Source: Deltaproteobacteria bacterium
GTDB taxonomy: Bacteria > Desulfobacterota > DSM-4660 > Desulfatiglandales > Desulfatiglandaceae
Length of the DNA stretch: 7,317 nucleotides
Direction: 5' to 3'
Assembly: GCA_013349725.1 (NCBI GenBank)
Contig: DUZB01000253.1
Span: 1 to 7,317, forward strand
Position 1 is the stretch's first letter, and the number at the start of each line of letters is the position of its first letter. The position numbers and the translations under genes are program-made. The notes beneath the pieces were generated by a model, which worked only from the letters and a program-made list of their open reading frames with translations, was not told the DNA's origin and did not search any database. This document shows, one piece after another, positions 1 to 7,317 of the stretch.

Positions 1-82
1 CGTTCATGTCCCTTGCCTGCATCCGTTCGGACATGGTTTCCAGGAAATCTTTTTCATCATCCACCAGCAATACTTTTTCCAT
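1..82 (-). CDS. Response regulator receiver protein, 5' part only (cut by the window edge)
   Basis: Only the first 27 codons are present, starting at an ATG (82-80) with an AAGGAG ribosome binding site at 94-89 and a 6-nt spacer. The peptide begins MEKVLLVDDEKDF, the beta1 strand and paired acidic residues (D8, D9) that bind Mg2+ in CheY-like receiver domains. The phospho-acceptor Asp and any output domain lie outside the window, so it is unknown whether this is a single-domain regulator or carries an effector. The stretch closely resembles the start of the receiver domain in the fusion protein at 2949-4175 (KVLLVDDE, then a matching SER...RDM pattern), which suggests a paralogue. It is the last gene seen in the operon, 44 nt after the preceding stop, and may be the terminal acceptor of the phosphorelay encoded here. 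Confidence 0.88.
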   Translation of the reverse strand, partial: MEKVLLVDDEKDFLETMSERMQARDMN

Positions 83-104
83 TTTGTTCTCCTTTCTTAA
101 TGCC

Positions 105-139
105 GTTAGCTTTCAGCCTTTAGCCTTCAGTTGTCAGTC
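105..139 (-). repeat. Heptanucleotide array A (five 7-nt units, consensus RRCTRAM)
   Basis: Read on the minus strand from 139 to 105, five consecutive 7-nt units are GACTGAC, AACTGAA, GGCTAAA, GGCTGAA and AGCTAAC. Every unit has CT at positions 3-4 and A at position 6. The array covers the last codons and stop of the H-box protein gene (127-807) and extends into the 44-nt gap before the next gene. Confidence 0.75.
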
Positions 140-807
140 GATTTTTGACGTATATCTTTTGGCAAAACCATTTGGATTTCCCGAGCCTTCGCATCCAGGA
201 AAATCGCTCCGCCCAGCGTTTGCAGCAAGGCTTTTTCCGTTTCCGTTGGGAATGCATCCTCCGACAGGTTTGAAAGCATTTCAAGTCCGGTAACCCTTAT
301 TTTAACCGAATCCGGGCCTGTTTCATACGTGAATCTTAGGGTTTTTCCGTCTCCTGAAGCTCCCATGGCAAAATCAACGACCTGCCAGAGAAGGTTCAGA
401 AGATGGAATGGGGATGTAATAATGGTTACAGGATCCTGCGGCAGTTGCAGATCCAGTTTTACACTTTTCATATCCGCTAATCGCAGGGAAAGTCCGACCG
501 ACAATTCCAGGATTTCTCTGAGTCCGACACTTTTGTGGAAATCATCCACACTGTGGGCCAGACTATTCATATTCCTTGTAATTCCGCCCGCCCGCCGGAT
601 CTGTTTTGAAACCCTCTGGGATAATGCCTTAAGCTTCTCAGGGTCGATGGGAATACCTTTCTCGGCCATGATAGTATAGTCTTCCAGCAGTCCCGCACTT
701 TCATTTATGATCGCCATCACATTCTTGATTTCATGAGAAATAGACGCAGTCATTTTTCCGAAAAATTGAAGTCCTGTTCCTGTTTCACCATCCGACAGGT
801 GATTCAT
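127..807 (-). CDS. Histidine-kinase-like protein with H-box but no ATP-binding motifs (possible phosphotransferase)
   Basis: This is a cytoplasmic protein of 226 residues with no membrane segment. Residues 13-90 look like a dimerisation/phosphotransfer (DHp) helical pair with an H-box, SHEIKN, whose phospho-acceptor would be H25. The flanking pattern HEIxNxxAIINExAGL is almost shared with the full kinase at 1163-2914, pointing to common ancestry. The C-terminal half (about 125-216) has the outline of a HATPase domain but not its motifs: the N-box position reads LLNLLWQVVDFAMGA, where the metal-binding Asn aligns with Gln (Q142), and neither a DxGxG G1 box nor a GTGLGL G2 box is present. Spo0B and ChpT have this plan, a DHp dimer with a non-ATP-binding CA-like domain, and move phosphate between receivers. 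That role is inference; a divergent kinase is the alternative. The ATG at 807 follows AAGGGG (819-814), which overlaps the previous gene's stop. The last codons are encoded by a heptad repeat. Confidence 0.85.
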   Translation of the reverse strand: MNHLSDGETGTGLQFFGKMTASISHEIKNVMAIINESAGLLEDYTIMAEKGIPIDPEKLKALSQRVSKQIRRAGGITRNMNSLAHSVDDFHKSVGLREILELSVGLSLRLADMKSVKLDLQLPQDPVTIITSPFHLLNLLWQVVDFAMGASGDGKTLRFTYETGPDSVKIRVTGLEMLSNLSEDAFPTETEKALLQTLGGAIFLDAKAREIQMVLPKDIRQKSTDN

Positions 808-818
808 GTTCCACCCCT

Positions 819-1178
819 TTATTCTCTCATCAACTTTTTCATTTTTTCCATGAGTTCATCGATATGGACGGGCTTCAGCAGATAGTAATCCTCCCCCGTC
901 TCGGAAGATCCGGCGGCAAAATCGTCCTGCGATCCGTGCCCGGTCAGGAACATGAATTTCAGATCAGGACACTTTACCTTCATTTTCCTTTGCAGATCTA
1001 TGCCACTGATTCCCGGGATCTTCACGTCCAGAATGGCCAGGTCGAATGCCTCTTCCCCAATGCGTTTCAAAGCCGCATCACCAGTCGTTTCCCAATGCGC
1101 CTCTATCCCTCTGATGCCCAACCTTTCCGCCAGTGCTTCCACCAGTTCCTTTTCGTCGTCCACTAAGAGTACACGCAC
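819..1178 (-). CDS. Single-domain response regulator (CheY/Spo0F-like receiver)
   Basis: The 119 residues form one complete receiver domain with no output domain. The conserved residues are visible: D7 and D8 for Mg2+ binding, phospho-acceptor D51 (in LAILDVKIPG), T79 (FLTGHGS) and K102 (LLKPV). Proteins of this size either act by protein-protein contact or pass phosphate on, as Spo0F does. The start is GTG at 1178-1176; no ATG occurs in frame upstream, and an AAGGAG lies 11 nt before it. The gene overlaps the last 16 nt of the sensor kinase gene, so translation of the two is probably coupled, and the kinase is its most likely phosphodonor. It is followed after 11 nt by the H-box protein lacking ATPase motifs, an order that fits kinase to receiver to phosphotransferase. 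Confidence 0.93.
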   Translation of the reverse strand: MRVLLVDDEKELVEALAERLGIRGIEAHWETTGDAALKRIGEEAFDLAILDVKIPGISGIDLQRKMKVKCPDLKFMFLTGHGSQDDFAAGSSETGEDYYLLKPVHIDELMEKMKKLMRE

Positions 1179-2914
1179 GAGCTTTTCATCTCCTTTTCTT
1201 CGGTTACAAGGGGGAGTATAATGGTAAAAGTTGTCCCTTTGTTTAACTCACTTTTCACTTCAATCTTTCCACCGATCTGTTCAACAAGACCGTAGGTAAT
1301 GGAAAGGCCTAACCCGGTTCCTCCTTTTCCCGTCTTTGTCGAGAAAAACGGTTCAAAAACACGTTTCAGATCCTTTTCTGAAATCCCGCTGCCATCATCA
1401 GAAATGGAGAGCGATACGCTGTCTTTTCCTTCCATTCTGCTCACGACGTGCAGATGACCGTTGTCTCCCATGGCGGCAAAGGCATTGTTGATGATATTCA
1501 ATATAATCTGCTGCAGCTTGCCCGCATCTGTCTGAATCCGAGGAATATCTTCGGCAACTTCTATCAAAATTTCAATGCATCGGAATTCTGCTTCTTTGTT
1601 TAGAAACCCAAGGACTTCCCGGACAACCTCCTCTAAATTCACCGTCTGAATGCTCACATCCATATGGCGCGCAAAACCCAGCAGGCGCTTTGTGATTCTT
1701 CCGCACCTGGCTACCGAACGTATGATGGAGTCCAGCAGGCCCATGAGCGTATCGTTTCCCGCATATTCCTTCTTAAAGAGAAACAGGTCCTTCATCAAAC
1801 CGGCTTTTTCGTTAATGATGGCCAATGGATTGTTAATTTCATGAGCCACCCCGGCCGCCAGCCTCCCGATGGAGGCCATCTTGTTGGCATATTCCACCTG
1901 ATGAAGCGTGATAATCAGTTTCCGATCCGACTGAAAGATTCTATTTACAAGATACGTTACCCCACCTAAAATGACAAAGAGAATAAAGGCCACACTGATG
2001 ATCAGAAACCAGATCAGTTTCTTTCTGGTATCCTCCCATGGCCGCATCAGCTCCTTTTTGTGCTTGACCACCATCAGGATGAACGGCGTATCGGCAATAT
2101 ATTTATACCCGATAACGAGGGCGCCCCCGTTTTTATCCAGCCATTCTATAACCCTTGTCTTGGGGGCATATTCCGGTATGGGCAGAGAGATTTTCTGCAG
2201 CACCTCCCCGTTGGCGGATGTGGGCGTCTGGAGCACCCCGTTGTGGTTGATAATAAAAGCATCTCCCTGACCGGCTATCTCAAGCTTGGATAGCAGATCA
2301 TTAAATTTCTCCGTATCCAGCGCCGCCCTGAGAACGAAGAAATCACCATCTACCGGGGTACATTTGACCGCGATAACGAGGTGGGGAACATTTCGATACC
2401 CCATGAATACATCACTGATAAAAACCCCGTGAAGCGCAACCTGCTTAAACCACTCCTGCTCGCTGTAATCCCTGCCTTTCAATCCGTAAGGCCCCACATA
2501 GGAGAGCTGAATACCACGATGGTCAATCAATCCCAGGTCGGTGAAACCGCCGAAACTCTTTTTCAGGTTTTCAAGAATAGCGTTCAACCGTTCAGGATTC
2601 ATGCATTCGTCAAAGCAACGATCATGCACAACAAAATCAAGCGCGGATTTCCTTTCATCCAGAAAGTACGAAAAAGTCCGGCGGACATTGGATACAAGCC
2701 GGGAAGTTCTGAGAAGGATCTCGGATTCAACGTCGTGTCTTGTTGCCCTGTAATCCATGACGGTCATGAATATCAGAGGCGCCAGAACCACCGCAGATGT
2801 GAGGAAAACCGCCGCGTACCAGATACGCCGGAAGTCGAACTGAGACCTGTAGGGTCCTGCATCCGAATCGTGATGATCCCAGAACTCGGGTTTTATCTTA
2901 TTTAAGATTTTCAT
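1163..2914 (-). CDS. Membrane sensor histidine kinase with Cache-like extracytoplasmic domain
   Basis: This 583-residue kinase has all catalytic parts. A short cytoplasmic N-terminus leads into TM1 (about 31-53). An extracytoplasmic region of about 245 residues follows, whose central part (GLKGRDYSEQEWF, then FISDVFMGYRNVPH) resembles the double Cache sensors of DctB-like kinases. TM2 is about 300-323. The HisKA H-box, GVAHEINNPLAI, gives phospho-acceptor H358. The HATPase domain shows an N-box (N473, N477), a G1 box (D506 to G510, DDGSG), an F-box (FEPFFSTK, 520-527) and a G2 box (GTGLGLS, 532-538). There is no PAS domain between TM2 and the H-box. The ligand cannot be predicted; Cache domains of this kind usually bind small organic acids or amino acids. 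The start ATG at 2914 lies inside a heptanucleotide array and lacks a normal Shine-Dalgarno sequence; an in-frame TGA lies two codons upstream, and no better start is visible. Confidence 0.95.
   Translation of the reverse strand: MKILNKIKPEFWDHHDSDAGPYRSQFDFRRIWYAAVFLTSAVVLAPLIFMTVMDYRATRHDVESEILLRTSRLVSNVRRTFSYFLDERKSALDFVVHDRCFDECMNPERLNAILENLKKSFGGFTDLGLIDHRGIQLSYVGPYGLKGRDYSEQEWFKQVALHGVFISDVFMGYRNVPHLVIAVKCTPVDGDFFVLRAALDTEKFNDLLSKLEIAGQGDAFIINHNGVLQTPTSANGEVLQKISLPIPEYAPKTRVIEWLDKNGGALVIGYKYIADTPFILMVVKHKKELMRPWEDTRKKLIWFLIISVAFILFVILGGVTYLVNRIFQSDRKLIITLHQVEYANKMASIGRLAAGVAHEINNPLAIINEKAGLMKDLFLFKKEYAGNDTLMGLLDSIIRSVARCGRITKRLLGFARHMDVSIQTVNLEEVVREVLGFLNKEAEFRCIEILIEVAEDIPRIQTDAGKLQQIILNIINNAFAAMGDNGHLHVVSRMEGKDSVSLSISDDGSGISEKDLKRVFEPFFSTKTGKGGTGLGLSITYGLVEQIGGKIEVKSELNKGTTFTIILPLVTEEKEMKSSCVYS
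1190..1195 (-). promoter_or_regulatory. Ribosome binding site supporting the GTG start of the response regulator
   Basis: AAGGAG on the minus strand lies 11 nt before the GTG at 1178, inside the end of the sensor kinase gene. The spacing is longer than usual but no other start is available in that frame. It supports a real, overlapping gene start. Confidence 0.55.
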
Positions 2915-2944
2915 TCTTCATTCTTAATCCACAATTCGTAATTC
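2910..2944 (-). repeat. Heptanucleotide array B (five 7-nt units, consensus GAATKAA)
   Basis: Read on the minus strand from 2944 to 2910, the units are GAATTAC, GAATTGT, GGATTAA, GAATGAA and GAATGAA, with the last two identical. The array fills nearly all of the gap between the fusion protein gene and the sensor kinase gene. The kinase's ATG (2914-2912) is inside the final unit. Confidence 0.78.
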
Positions 2945-2948
2945 CTCA

Positions 2949-4175
2949 CTACTCCCGCAGGCGTTTCTTCTCCTTGATTTTTTCATTGGCACTCTGCAGC
3001 GTCTCCGTCAGAACGGCAATATCCACGGGTTTATGAAGGTAGGCAAAAGCGCCTAATTCCATGCAGACCTTCCTGTCGTCTTCCGAACCGTGTCCCGTAA
3101 GGATAATTACTTCTATGTCCGGACTGGTTTTTTTCACGCGCCTTAGCACCTCGATTCCATCTATCCCGGGCATTTTGAGATCCAGGATCATCACTTCCGG
3201 CTCATCCTCACTGACCATCTGGAGAGCCGATTCCCCGTCATAGGCCACGGCGGAGCCCATGTCACGCATCAACAATCGCTCGGAGAGGGTCTGCACAAAT
3301 TCCCTTTCATCATCAACAAGAAGGACCTTTGAAGGGGCCTCAAAGTCAAATTTCCGGTAGATGTCTGTCTTGTGGAAATTCTTGCCCACTGTGGTATTCA
3401 CGGACTGGACGCCGGATACCCGGACCGCAATGGCTTTGAGTTCCTCTTCCAACCTGCTCAGCATGAGGACATGCTTGTTGATGGTAATGGTGACCGAACC
3501 ATCTGCGGCGCTCACATCCGCATCGTGTCCCTCTTTAGCCAGAGCCACACCCACGGCGGCGGACAGAAGAAAATCTGCGAGGGCTTTTCCGGACCGCTCC
3601 GTTGGTTGAAGCAGGTCTTTTTTCAGATAGTCACGGATGGTGGCAACAGCCTTTTCGACCTCTGTTTTGTCCATGGGGATAACGATGTCATACAGCGAAG
3701 AATCCCAAGGATCTTTACTTCCCAGATGCGACTGCACCCAGACTGCACAGTCTCCATCCTGTTTGTGAATCAAGGCTGTCGCTTCCTTCTCGGACAAGTT
3801 CTTTTCAGTGGTTGCGGCCGATTTTCTGTATTTCATATCCGCGATCAGACAGACCCGAAGCACATGGGTGATTTCTCTTGGAATGAGCTGGCTTGAAAAC
3901 CCTGATAGGATGAGATTGTCATGAGCAAGAATGTCAGCCACAGCAAGCTTCATTTCCGCTATGGATCGCTCCTTCTCGTGCGTGAAGTTGTTAAATACAG
4001 AGGTTTTGGCTGAAAAAGCCCGTTCTATTTTGCCCTCTGCGACACCGGATTGTGCACTCACTTTCTTCACGATGTCCTTGTCGAGAACGACTTTATAGCC
4101 TGTGCTCTCTTGAAGCGCCCGAAGTACGTGCCCTTCGTTGCAGAATGTGCCGCTGAAAATACCAATAACGGACAT
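2949..4175 (-). CDS. Cytidylate-kinase-like / BON-like / receiver-domain fusion protein
   Basis: This 408-residue soluble protein has three parts. Residues 1-188 resemble the cytidylate-kinase-like family (Pfam Cytidylate_kin_2): an initial beta strand and loop (IGIFSGTFCNEG), a GYKVVLDKDIV segment, ILSGFSSQLIPR, the SEKEATALIHKQD helix, and WDSSLYDIVIPMDK near the end. The phosphate-binding loop is altered: the usual small-residue GSGG stretch reads CNEG, so catalysis is doubtful. Residues about 195-265 look like a BON domain (GSVTITI, then VSGVQSVNTTVG). Residues 282-400 are a full receiver with D288/D289, phospho-acceptor D332 (MILDLKMPG), T360 and K382. The output module is thus at the N-terminus, the reverse of most response regulators. 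The start ATG has AAGGAG 7 nt upstream, 25 nt after the permease stop. Domains 1 and 2 are called by pattern recall and are less certain than the receiver. Its position between permease and kinase suggests a cytoplasmic effector. Confidence 0.85.
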   Translation of the reverse strand: MSVIGIFSGTFCNEGHVLRALQESTGYKVVLDKDIVKKVSAQSGVAEGKIERAFSAKTSVFNNFTHEKERSIAEMKLAVADILAHDNLILSGFSSQLIPREITHVLRVCLIADMKYRKSAATTEKNLSEKEATALIHKQDGDCAVWVQSHLGSKDPWDSSLYDIVIPMDKTEVEKAVATIRDYLKKDLLQPTERSGKALADFLLSAAVGVALAKEGHDADVSAADGSVTITINKHVLMLSRLEEELKAIAVRVSGVQSVNTTVGKNFHKTDIYRKFDFEAPSKVLLVDDEREFVQTLSERLLMRDMGSAVAYDGESALQMVSEDEPEVMILDLKMPGIDGIEVLRRVKKTSPDIEVIILTGHGSEDDRKVCMELGAFAYLHKPVDIAVLTETLQSANEKIKEKKRLRE

Positions 4176-4200
4176 ATGTGAACTCCTTTTTTAGCGTCGT

Positions 4201-6339
4201 TTATAAAATTTCTGGTGTTAGATGGCATACGGTCAACAGGGGGCAAACCTCCTCCTTGCCATCCTTATGCGTCTCCGCGTGAATCGATTGAACAGCCTTT
4301 TCCATGGTCGGATACAGATGATTCGCTCCTATTTTTTCCATAAAATGCGTTCTTTTCAACACTTTCATCACAGTTTCATTGACACCGCTGAGGGAGACAT
4401 CGATGTTGGCGCTTCGGATTCGATCTACAAGCAAAGATAACGTTTCTTCTCCCGAGGCGTCAATATCATTTATTCCATTGGATACCAGGATAATGTGCTT
4501 TAATCTTCTTTTCCTGGCCATGATATCCGCGATCTGGTCCTCCAGGTAACTGGAGTTTGCAAAAAACAGGGATCCGTCAAATCGAAGCATGGCAATATAT
4601 TCGCACTCTTTCAGCCCATGATCGGCTGCGCATCTCAAGGCCTGATCCTGATCCCGGGAGAGAAATGCCATTTTCGGTCTCATGCTTTTGTAAAGATATA
4701 CAAAAAGCGAGAGTGCCACACCGATCATGATGCCCCTGTCGAGATGGGGTGCAAAAACAAGGGTACAGAGAAAAGAGACGATGGCAATCGCCCCGTCGTA
4801 CCATTGGGCCTCCCACGCGTGGACAAAACCGGAAACGTTGATCAAACCGATGACGGCCATCATGATCACCGCGGCAAGGACGGGCTGGGGCAGATGGTAG
4901 AGAAGAGGTGTGAAAAAGAGAAGGGCAATCACCACCACCAGACTGGTAAAAACACTCGACAAACCGGTGACCGCCCCGCTCTGAAGATTTACCGCGGATC
5001 TCGAGAAAGAACCGGAAACGGGATAACTCTTCCCCATCGCCCCAAGGATGTTTCCCAGGCCCTGTCCGATCAGTTCCTGATTCGGGTCCAGTCGCTGTCC
5101 CGTCTTGGCCGCCATGGCCTTGGCAATACTGATGGCCTCCATGAAACCAAGAAGGGAAATAATGGCGGCATAGGGCAGGAGATGCAGAATAACTCCCATA
5201 TCAACTTTGGGCATGCTCAGGGATGGAATCCCCTTGGGGACCACTCCTACCACCAGACCTCCTCCGATCATAAGGATCTGATTGGTTTTCAGCTCCGAGT
5301 TCCCGATTTTTATCCGCCAGGTTCGACCATCTCCCTTCATACCTTCGGGAAGCTCGTTTCTCAAATAGAATTTCAGGGAACCATCCGCCTGTTCCACCCC
5401 CTCAAACAGCATGTTCCGGATAGGACCGCGTGACTTGTAGATCTCATCATTCACTCTTTCCATATTCATCGTGAGAACATTAATTTCATGTTCCGCATTC
5501 AATACCCCGATGAGATCATGGTTCCTGTTGGCGGCATCCAGGGCCTTGTTCACCTCTGTCCTCTCTTCCGAAAGAGAAGGAATGAGGGCAATCGACCGGT
5601 TAAAATTCTTAACCATATTCCTTATTTCCGGTATCTGGATGGCTGATATGTCCACCGTCCTATTGTGCTGAAAACCGGTGGCCCAGGACAGCAGCGTCGT
5701 GATGATCACGGCAACCAGGACATTGGGGATTTTCGGGGATACCCTCCTCAACCCGTACATGATGCCAAATGCCAGCGCCCCCATGCCCAGCGTCGGCCAG
5801 TGGGTGTAATGCCAGGCGGACTGAACAACCCGCATAATCGTCTCGTAGTGATGTGCCGCCTTGTCCACGGAAACACCAAAAATCTTGGACAACTGGGAGG
5901 AGGCAATAATAATCGCGGCAGCATTGGTAAACCCGTTGACAACGGGATGGGACAGAAAATTGACCACAAGCCCGAGCCTCAGTATCCCCAGAGCAAGTTG
6001 GAAGGCCCCTACCGTAAGCGCCAGCAGGATGGCGTAAGCGATATAGCCGGGACTTCCTGCAGTCGCAAGAGGCTCCAACGATGCCGCAGTCATCAGGGAA
6101 ACGACGGCCACGGGACCGGTGGCTAACTGACGGCTTGACCCGAAAAGTGCCGCAACCATGGGCGGCAGGAAAGAAGCATAGAGGCCATAATAAGGCGGCA
6201 GGCCCGCTAACTGGGCATAGGCCATGGACTGGGGAATCAGTACAAGCGCAACGGTAATGCCTGAAATGAGGTCAGTCCTGAAACTCACCAGATCGTACTC
6301 TTTAAACCAGCCCAGGAACGGGAATACTTTGGTTAACAT
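4201..6339 (-). CDS. SulP (SLC26-type) anion permease with C-terminal STAS domain and a large soluble insertion
   Basis: This 712-residue inner-membrane transporter is longer than the 550-600 residues usual in bacterial SulP proteins. The family signature is near the N-terminus (RTDLISGITVALVLIPQSMA, then AGLPPYYGLYASFLPP), followed by NGFTNAAAIIIASSQL (135-150) and, in the second half, PYAAIISLLGFMEAISIAKA and SYPVSGSFSRSAVNLQSGA. The C-terminal STAS domain (about 575-690) contains NDIDASG (624-630), matching the regulatory loop of SpoIIAA-like folds. The extra length comes mainly from residues 223-357, between the helix ending at about 222 and the VVPKGIPSL motif: a charged helical part followed by a strand-rich part. 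The substrate is not readable; family members carry sulfate, bicarbonate, C4-dicarboxylates or other anions. The ATG has AAGGAG at 6354-6349 with a 9-nt spacer. Co-transcription with two-component genes suggests it reports on, or is controlled by, the signalling proteins downstream. Confidence 0.95.
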   Translation of the reverse strand: MLTKVFPFLGWFKEYDLVSFRTDLISGITVALVLIPQSMAYAQLAGLPPYYGLYASFLPPMVAALFGSSRQLATGPVAVVSLMTAASLEPLATAGSPGYIAYAILLALTVGAFQLALGILRLGLVVNFLSHPVVNGFTNAAAIIIASSQLSKIFGVSVDKAAHHYETIMRVVQSAWHYTHWPTLGMGALAFGIMYGLRRVSPKIPNVLVAVIITTLLSWATGFQHNRTVDISAIQIPEIRNMVKNFNRSIALIPSLSEERTEVNKALDAANRNHDLIGVLNAEHEINVLTMNMERVNDEIYKSRGPIRNMLFEGVEQADGSLKFYLRNELPEGMKGDGRTWRIKIGNSELKTNQILMIGGGLVVGVVPKGIPSLSMPKVDMGVILHLLPYAAIISLLGFMEAISIAKAMAAKTGQRLDPNQELIGQGLGNILGAMGKSYPVSGSFSRSAVNLQSGAVTGLSSVFTSLVVVIALLFFTPLLYHLPQPVLAAVIMMAVIGLINVSGFVHAWEAQWYDGAIAIVSFLCTLVFAPHLDRGIMIGVALSLFVYLYKSMRPKMAFLSRDQDQALRCAADHGLKECEYIAMLRFDGSLFFANSSYLEDQIADIMARKRRLKHIILVSNGINDIDASGEETLSLLVDRIRSANIDVSLSGVNETVMKVLKRTHFMEKIGANHLYPTMEKAVQSIHAETHKDGKEEVCPLLTVCHLTPEIL

Positions 6340-6369
6340 ATGTATAAGCTCCTTCGTAAAGATTTTATC

Positions 6370-6390
6370 CGGTTAATAGAACGTTAACCG
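6370..6390. promoter_or_regulatory. Inverted repeat in the leader of the SulP gene
   Basis: Perfect 7-bp arms CGGTTAA (6370-6376) and TTAACCG (6384-6390) flank a 7-bp centre, 31 bp before the permease ATG and within the 106-nt gap after the TetR gene. No T run follows on the minus strand, so it is not an ordinary terminator. It could be a protein-binding site or an RNA hairpin acting on the permease leader. It differs in sequence from the palindrome at 7064-7087. Confidence 0.4.
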
Positions 6391-6445
6391 TTTCCAAGCA
6401 CACATTTGGCTCCACCAAGAATCGCCCATTACTCTTACACAGAAT

Positions 6446-7039
6446 TCACTGACCACTGGCCACTGTTCCAAGCATCCGCCTGCAAGAAGCGATGAGTTCA
6501 CTGTACAATGCGCCGGCGTCATAAAGGTTGTAGCTATTGAAACGAACCAGTCCATCCGTCAAAGTAAAAATAAGCAACGCATTCTTTCTTGCGGGAATAT
6601 CGCCAACGGAACCATCTTCTTTTCCCAGGTTTATAGCCTTCTCGAAAATGTCCACAAGACAGTTATAAGTATCTTCAAGATATTCTCTGCAAACTGGATT
6701 TACCTCCGCAAGTTCATAGGCATCGTGGCGATGCAGAAGCATGAAAAAATCGGGCATGTGGCCCGCCATGTAGAGATAAAAAGAAATGACCTCTTCAACC
6801 ATTTCGAGGCCTGTTCTGAAGGTCTTCTTCGCGGTATACCTATCAAATTCATTAATAATTTTCGATTTAACCATTTCCAGGATCGTGATAAAAAGCGTTT
6901 CTTTATTTTTGAAATGGTAAAAGATCGTCCCTTCTGCCGCACCTGTCATTTTCGATAGATCAGACATGGAGGTATCCTTAAACCCCTTCTTCGCAAAGAG
7001 ACATAGTGCAGACTGCAGAATGGATTCCTTTTTTGACAT
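6446..7039 (-). CDS. TetR/AcrR-family transcriptional repressor
   Basis: A 197-residue protein from the ATG at 7039; an upstream in-frame GTG at 7048 would give 200. The ATG is preferred because the peptide then starts MSKKESILQSAL, typical of the family, and GAGAG and AGG sequences lie just upstream, whereas the GTG has no binding site. Residues 4-47 form the TetR N-terminal domain: helix 1 (ESILQSALCLFAKKGF), then the helix-turn-helix MSDLSKMTGAAEGTIFYHF with the family's YxHF ending, and KNKETLF. The rest is a mostly helical ligand-binding and dimer domain of unknown specificity. It is the first gene of the operon and has a promoter with an overlapping palindrome directly upstream, so autorepression is likely. 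The last six residues are encoded within a heptad repeat (6447-6467), so the natural C-terminus may have been altered. Confidence 0.92.
   Translation of the reverse strand: MSKKESILQSALCLFAKKGFKDTSMSDLSKMTGAAEGTIFYHFKNKETLFITILEMVKSKIINEFDRYTAKKTFRTGLEMVEEVISFYLYMAGHMPDFFMLLHRHDAYELAEVNPVCREYLEDTYNCLVDIFEKAINLGKEDGSVGDIPARKNALLIFTLTDGLVRFNSYNLYDAGALYSELIASCRRMLGTVASGQ
6447..6467 (-). repeat. Heptanucleotide array C (three 7-nt units, consensus NNCAGTG)
   Basis: Read on the minus strand from 6467 to 6447, the units are AACAGTG, GCCAGTG and GTCAGTG, each ending in CAGTG. They encode the last residues and most of the stop codon of the TetR-family gene. The array is shorter than the other two but has the same period and the same kind of location. 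Confidence 0.65.
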
Positions 7040-7063
7040 AACTCTCACGCCTAAAACGATAAT

Positions 7064-7087
7064 AACTAACTGAGTGCTCAGTCAGTT
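7064..7087. promoter_or_regulatory. Probable TetR-family operator: 24-bp palindrome
   Basis: Two 11-bp arms (AACTAACTGAG at 7064-7074 and CTCAGTCAGTT at 7077-7087) are inverted repeats with one mismatch, separated by 2 bp. The symmetry, length and TGAG/CTCA core resemble operators bound by TetR-family dimers. It sits immediately downstream of the -10 hexamer and so covers the expected transcription start, an ideal position for repression. It lies 25 nt from the repressor's ATG. Binding by the adjacent repressor is inferred from position. Confidence 0.75.
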
Positions 7088-7089
7088 TG

Positions 7090-7118
7090 TGTATAGCAAT
7101 CTTTTTTTAGAGCGTCAA
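7090..7118 (-). promoter_or_regulatory. Sigma70-type promoter of the operon
   Basis: On the minus strand a -35 hexamer TTGACG (7118-7113) and a -10 hexamer TATACA (7095-7090) are separated by exactly 17 nt that contain a run of seven A. Each hexamer differs from consensus at one position. The start of transcription is expected near 7083, inside the palindrome at 7064-7087. No other good promoter was seen in front of the downstream genes, so this may drive the whole operon. Confidence 0.75.
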
Positions 7119-7202
7119 GGAAATAAATTGACAGAATCAAACGAAAAGGCAAACCGGCGGGAATGCGTGCAGGGAAGACAACCGAAGGCATAAACCAAGC
7201 AG

Positions 7203-7229
7203 CAAAAAGCCGGGTCCAGGGCCCGGCTT
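7203..7229 (-). terminator. Intrinsic terminator of the gene upstream of the operon
   Basis: On the minus strand an 8-bp perfect stem (AAGCCGGG at 7229-7222 and CCCGGCTT at 7214-7207) with a 7-nt loop is followed by a T run starting within the stem and continuing to 7204. The plus strand has no T run after the hairpin, so it acts on minus-strand transcripts coming from beyond the right edge. It separates that unit from the promoter at 7118-7090. Confidence 0.7.
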
Positions 7230-7279
7230 CCAAAGGAGATCTTCCGATGGGTTTTTGGCAGTTGGACAGATGAGACGGA

Positions 7280-7317
7280 TCACCGCAGGCCGTCTTCTTT
7301 CTTCGCATCTTCCTTCA
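7280..7317 (-). CDS. Possible 3' end of an upstream gene (partial)
   Basis: In one minus-strand frame the last 11 codons read KEDAKKEDGLR and end at a TGA (7282-7280). The charged, lysine- and glutamate-rich tail looks like a natural protein C-terminus, and a terminator lies about 50 nt downstream. The fragment is far too short to identify, and the call rests mostly on the position of the terminator. Confidence 0.4.
   Translation of the reverse strand, partial: KEDAKKEDGLR

Follow-up and report, generated by a model that had tools for sequence, protein, structure and literature searches.

A putative pseudo-kinase phosphotransferase family encoded among receivers and beside sulfate transporter genes in Desulfobacterota

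PMC9981736 and PMC5898713 name few phosphotransferases derived from histidine kinases, namely Spo0B, ChpT and PhyT. The protein considered here, of 226 residues and hereafter called the DHp protein, is encoded in a stretch of 7,317 nucleotides of a Deltaproteobacteria bacterium of the Desulfatiglandaceae (contig DUZB01000253.1 of assembly GCA_013349725.1, positions 1 to 7,317; this whole stretch is the window), together with a Cache histidine kinase, two single-domain receivers (REC1 before and REC2 after the DHp gene), a third receiver joined to a CMP-kinase-like domain (CK-REC) and a SulP sulfate permease. The Spo0F-Spo0B-Spo0A relay of Bacillus and Clostridia has comparable parts: a separate kinase, a single-domain receiver, a kinase-like DHp phosphotransferase and a further receiver. 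It differs in that the genes are clustered here with a sulfate transporter, that the DHp protein has no match to the Spo0B families of Pfam, and that REC2 is without a DNA-binding domain in 10 of the 10 sequences scanned. Furthermore, REC1 can be lost alone here, whereas the Spo0 scenario discussed in PMC6136694 is the loss of both Spo0F and Spo0B. The Obg/L21/L27 neighbourhood used as a test for Spo0B is not that of the window, where the DHp gene lies among receivers, kinase and SulP, the other loci not having been searched for these genes by name.

ChpT combines a DHp domain with an atypical Bergerat fold devoid of an ATP lid (PMC3433190), and our model of the DHp protein is lidless as well, the lid being missing from it and replaced by helix turns in ChpT. 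According to PMC9981736, ChpT serves more than one receiver, including the lone receiver CpdR, which acts by protein contact; unlike in the CckA-ChpT-CtrA/CpdR system of Caulobacter, the kinase here is not a hybrid one. In the Sphingomonas general stress response, the degenerate kinase PhyT is described as moving phosphate from the lone receiver SdrG to PhyR, and as having a predicted membrane anchor, a periplasmic sensor and an HRxxN motif in its DHp domain (PMC5898713), whereas the 226-residue protein consists of a DHp and a CA-like domain only and is of the HisKA type. In Desulfobacteraceae, clusters with SulP, TetR, a Cache kinase and response regulators, and a DASS cluster with CBS proteins, have already been described; PMC11887813 interprets the cluster as a kinase with promoter-binding regulators of the WalR type, sulfate being the suggested signal. 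Our view departs from that one in that the receivers scanned have no DNA-binding domain and in the addition of a dead-kinase phosphotransferase. Supplements aside, the words phosphorelay, receiver and cytidylate are absent from the main text of PMC11887813; the main text of a review of sulfate transporters (PMC5840216) mentions neither histidine kinase nor response regulator, and our literature search turned up no report of this DHp relay, supplementary files aside. What is new is a probable kinase-derived phosphotransferase family with an unusual, apparently DNA-free output; the mechanism itself is not.

The model we propose, to which we give a probability of about 0.55, is that the DHp protein is a pseudo-kinase which spreads phosphate among REC1, CK-REC and REC2, and that the outputs of CK-REC and REC2 act on SulP. 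The Cache kinase would autophosphorylate at H358 and then phosphorylate receivers encoded beside it, namely REC1 and, probably, CK-REC. From a receiver, the phosphate would move to H25 of the DHp protein, a likely dimer, and from there to REC2, perhaps also back, so that the phosphate would be spread among the three receivers, REC1 serving as the shuttle, and CK-REC and REC2 as the output receivers. Because no DNA-binding domain was found on the receivers, the two output receivers would act through contact with another protein, the adjoining SulP being the likeliest. We infer every phosphotransfer step, the dimerisation, sulfate as the signal and the action on SulP. Such a relay would change the published two-component model of sulfate uptake control; the DHp family stands at the gate of sulfate reduction.

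To judge from its sequence, the 226-residue protein is likely a pseudo-histidine-kinase and a phosphotransferase of the Spo0B/ChpT kind. It matches the HisKA family of Pfam with an E-value of 1.8e-4 and 21.9 bits, under the curated cut-off of 26.9, and has no HATPase_c match at E up to 1. With the same limit on E, HisKA (PF00512) is matched by 44 of 44 members of the DHp family, and the 18 Pfam families matched by these members include neither HATPase_c nor any phosphotransferase family; the Spo0B models (PF14689 and PF14682), which PMC6136694 calls poor markers, are likewise unmatched in them, and ChpT is not among the 13 sequence matches of the family profile in the PDB at E up to 1. An active histidine kinase is recognised by a HATPase_c domain with N, G1 and G2 boxes, and the DHp family falls outside that class, even though its members (926 matches listed, some of them possibly kinases) are often annotated as histidine kinases in databases.

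The putative phospho-acceptor histidine and the loss of the ATP site, given in the original prediction as H25 and the missing G1 and G2 boxes, are both family traits. The His and the Asn of the HExxN motif are invariant across the 121 aligned rows; in the 81 DHp rows taken from the loci, the His is found in 80, with one gap, and the Asn in all 81. Among the 151 homologues listed, none has the G.GLG motif of the G2 box, eight have D.G.G, in each case within the last hairpin (residue 205) and not at the place of G1, and three have N...N[AG], at residues 172-173 and away from the place of the N box; in the 81 locus proteins, D.G.G occurs in 4, at residues 179-205 counted along the matched piece, and an N-box-like motif in two (173, 192). 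As no D.G.G or N-box-like match occupies the place of its own box, intact but diverged boxes were rejected. The placing of a Gln at the metal-binding Asn has to be abandoned: in a family-guided alignment with the kinase, Q142 lies opposite N473 and F146 opposite N477, respectively the first and second Asn of the N box, of which we take the second to be the Mg-binding residue. Conservation is lacking for Q142, which occurs in 56 of 121 rows, whereas F146 is found in 116 of 121.

The predicted structure, with a pLDDT (predicted local distance difference test) score of 87.3, consists of a DHp hairpin at residues 6-86 (helices 6-49 and 56-86) and a lidless CA-like domain at 92-216. A Foldseek search with this model retrieved kinases and, at rank 24 behind kinases, ChpT (4fpp; template modelling scores 0.52/0.56); the VIA structure list for the model is without ChpT, which excludes nothing. 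The lidless kinase-like fold of the model is in favour of the likeness to Spo0B and ChpT claimed beforehand. At one locus (L005:2396-2815) a second short DHp-like protein of 139 residues (LAHDLKNHLATIHESAGL) and a 247-residue protein precede the kinase, without Pfam match.

A single scan of genome contigs gave 151 relatives, from which 80 loci were retained, 81 with the window. The kinase is visible in 71 loci, the window included, and a receiver stands between the kinase and the DHp gene in 58 of them; where at least 700 bp are available downstream, a receiver follows the DHp gene within 1.5 kb in 70 of 74 loci, more than expected by chance. In the 51 loci with at least 5.6 kb upstream, SulP is present in 44, CK-REC in 40, the kinase in 50 and REC1 in 41. 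Eighteen more, distant loci (the 17 weakest matches and one paralogue) keep much of this order: the kinase adjoins the DHp gene in 15, with a receiver between them in 12 of the 15, and 16 of the 18 have a receiver after the DHp gene, either immediately or with one small frame in between. A DASS transporter is identified by Pfam in five of them (L175, L179, L181, L184 and L187, the last also with a PAS/sigma-54 activator, a CBS protein and TauE), and the gene set therefore adjoins both classes of sulfate transporter. Kinase-REC1-DHp-REC2 is a conserved gene set of the Desulfobacterota, mostly near SulP and sometimes near DASS; the original prediction of an ATPase-dead DHp protein with receivers on either side is supported.

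The receivers themselves are intact, the phospho-accepting Asp and the two acidic Asp residues being present in 61 of 61 REC1, 79 of 79 REC2 and 57 of 57 CK-REC sequences; the upstream receiver of L034, which groups with CK-REC, was excluded from the REC1 counts, and D2_L028 and D2_L033 from those of REC2. In this alignment the Pro of K-P was counted as column 103; the Lys of the motif was not counted by itself and is visible in the consensus. A receiver tree, built from 39 chosen loci of the 81 and of modest support owing to its few columns, gives one clade each for REC1 and CK-REC and splits the REC2-type rows between two groups. In the 37 complete loci, the identity over helix 1 is 0.57 between REC1 and CK-REC, 0.45 between REC2 and CK-REC and 0.39 between REC1 and REC2, against 0.27-0.31 when the comparison is with 37 other receivers from the loci; over the rest of the domain it is 0.30-0.35 among the three classes and 0.26-0.36 to other receivers. 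CK-REC is likely served by the kinase of REC1, since they have helix 1 in common (0.57 against 0.31 in the rest of the domain). As to the other parts of CK-REC, the consensus of 46 aligned relatives, as we read it, has no recognisable P-loop in the CK domain, and the middle domain has a helix-strand-strand-helix-strand order that is BON-like by eye, the structure lists covering mainly the receiver.

REC1 is the variable member of the set. Mapped on the DHp tree, its loss requires 5 changes; one group holds 10 of the 14 REC1-less rows, and H25 is kept in 15 of 15 such rows checked (L015 and L051 were added to the list, L051 being assigned to this class by hand). A relocated REC1 was considered and rejected: among the loci of the receiver tree, no receiver of the REC1 clade lies downstream, and the additional receivers group with the REC2 types. 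A three-frame reading of the gaps left in L007, L009, L015, L019, L031 and L050 gave no receiver. A similar translated stretch, perhaps an intergenic repeat, is found between the kinase and the DHp gene in L009, L015, L019 and L050.

What the receivers act upon is suggested by their domains and by natural fusions. Pfam gave no DNA-binding domain for the window's REC1 and CK-REC, nor for the 10 REC2 scanned; a receiver was the only domain found in these 10 and in the window's REC1. In three distant loci, a SulP-STAS transporter is fused to a receiver in one open frame according to Pfam (L175:7689-10274, L176:7426-9840, cut by the contig end, and L183:8252-10792), and a search with the fused part gave the SulP-STAS-REC make-up in 18 of the 120 matches listed. 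When 19 fused receivers were scored (one of 20, shorter than 80 residues, was left out), 12 were nearest to CK-REC, 7 to REC2 and none to REC1. The resemblance of the fused receivers to CK-REC and REC2, and never to REC1, suggests that REC1 is a shuttle and that the two others act on the transporter. We tentatively extend this to a wider proposal, possible but on balance doubtful: sulfate reducers would have a new family of His phosphotransferases, ATPase-dead and relaying phosphate to receivers free of DNA-binding domains which would directly set the activity of SulP, perhaps also of DASS, with REC1 as a dispensable shuttle and CK-REC and REC2 as the effectors. If true, a phosphorelay switches sulfate uptake post-translationally. 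The natural variants, with REC1 lost or a receiver fused to the transporter, make the wiring of the relay testable.

The origin of the family was sought in a kinome tree with 51 of the 67 HisKA matches of strain NaphS2 (the remainder failed the filters) and a few rows from other genomes. The DHp family is grouped at 100/100, including row L119, a DHp-family protein labelled as a kinase; the clade of the neighbouring kinases (96/87) adjoins it, the join at 80/80 not being firm, and the stem of the DHp family is long (2.33), so that its placement is unsure. These sequence data favour, not firmly, an origin from the lineage of the neighbouring kinase by one old event. The descent from that kinase put forward in the original prediction is retained in this form; a recent local duplication is not favoured, the DHp and the neighbouring-kinase clades each being single and old. 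The DHp motif cited as a sign of duplication is common to both proteins, but is partly found in further kinases of the same tree region, e.g. HEINNPLAIIKESAGW. Profile scores from six genomes agree in part: in three of them the top match outside the family is the neighbouring kinase, which in the other three ranks shortly after other kinases. Three docking positions of helix 1, known from the rewiring mutants of HK853, were also compared, after removal of the rows without the required motif (5 of the 81 for the DHp protein, 14 of the 57 for other kinases). Of 76 DHp proteins scored, 60 have the triplet I/E/L, as do 53 of the 68 neighbouring kinases; it is absent from all 43 other kinases. The common triplet suits a DHp protein that would meet the receivers of the kinase; it could also be inherited, and it blurs the assignment of the donor.

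Several observations weigh against our model. Thirteen of the 71 loci have no REC1 yet encode the DHp protein, and 4 of the 74 have no downstream receiver. SulP adjoins the set unfused in most loci, and the 19 fused receivers include several that are closely related to one another. By its like docking residues, the kinase may phosphorylate REC2 itself, in which case no shuttle would be necessary; to this it can be opposed that, when kinase and DHp protein from one locus are paired, their triplets agree fully in only 37 of 64 cases. A strictly linear relay, from the kinase His to the REC1 Asp, the DHp His and the REC2 Asp, with CK-REC outside the path, would agree with the gene order, with the intact active residues and with what a shuttle would lead one to expect of REC1, which forms its own clade and to which no fused receiver among the 19 is nearest. 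We consider this chain, the one originally predicted, unlikely: the DHp protein is kept in those 13 loci where REC1 is missing, CK-REC is present in 40 of the 51 loci with enough upstream sequence, and the helix 1 that it shares with REC1 points to the same kinase.

In HisKA kinases, HExxN also serves as the motif for phosphatase activity. That it is kept throughout the DHp family, and that a loss of REC1 would then not matter, would suit a phosphatase or phosphate sink which resets the receivers without forward transfer. We hold this to be quite improbable, the nucleotide site of the CA domain being lost here, for the phosphatase activity of HisKA proteins normally needs a CA domain with nucleotide, and a phosphatase needs no invariant His. 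PhyT speaks both ways: it was initially proposed to be a phosphatase, but no such activity on PhyR was seen in vitro (PMC5898713). Very improbable in our opinion is a DHp protein that would only modulate the neighbouring kinase or the receivers by binding them: its clade adjoins that of the kinase, which could favour mixed dimers, but the His is kept in a diverged family and binding alone would not demand it. The parallels would be RetS and DivL, which are modulating pseudokinases. The spreading of phosphate among the three receivers by the DHp protein stays our preferred model.

Table 1. Features of the window, in the order of transcription.
Feature	Coordinates	Strand	Remarks
TetR-family regulator	6446-7048	minus	heads the cluster
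SulP sulfate permease with STAS domain, 712 residues	4201-6339	minus	putative target of the relay
CK-REC, 408 residues: CMP-kinase-like domain, middle domain, receiver	2949-4175	minus	ILDLKMPG, D332
dCache histidine kinase, 583 residues	1163-2914	minus	H358; N, G1 and G2 boxes complete
REC1, single-domain receiver, 119 residues	819-1178	minus	D51; putative Spo0F-like shuttle
DHp protein, 226 residues	127-807	minus	H25; putative His phosphotransferase
REC2 (start), single-domain receiver	2-82	minus	27 codons, then window edge

The gene list drawn up beforehand was right as far as it went (Table 1) and omitted the third receiver, CK-REC, just upstream of the kinase. The kinase is complete as announced, with N473xxxN477, DDGSG at 506 and GTGLGL at 532, and its 3' end overlaps the start of REC1 at 1163-1178, REC1 being the lone receiver expected after it. 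In the case of REC2, the start is present and the gene is whole in relatives, where its commonest length is about 142 residues (71 called); the copy of the window is cut by the edge. TrkA- and TrkH-like potassium uptake genes lie 3' of REC2 in L003 and L004, two loci closely related to the window (by Pfam in the L004 pair only), and genes of similar size are found in L001 and L002; they were rejected as the output of the relay, not being general among the loci. SulP is long, with 707-735 residues across 43 full genes including that of the window, in which about 120 additional residues separate the two Sulfate_transp stretches.

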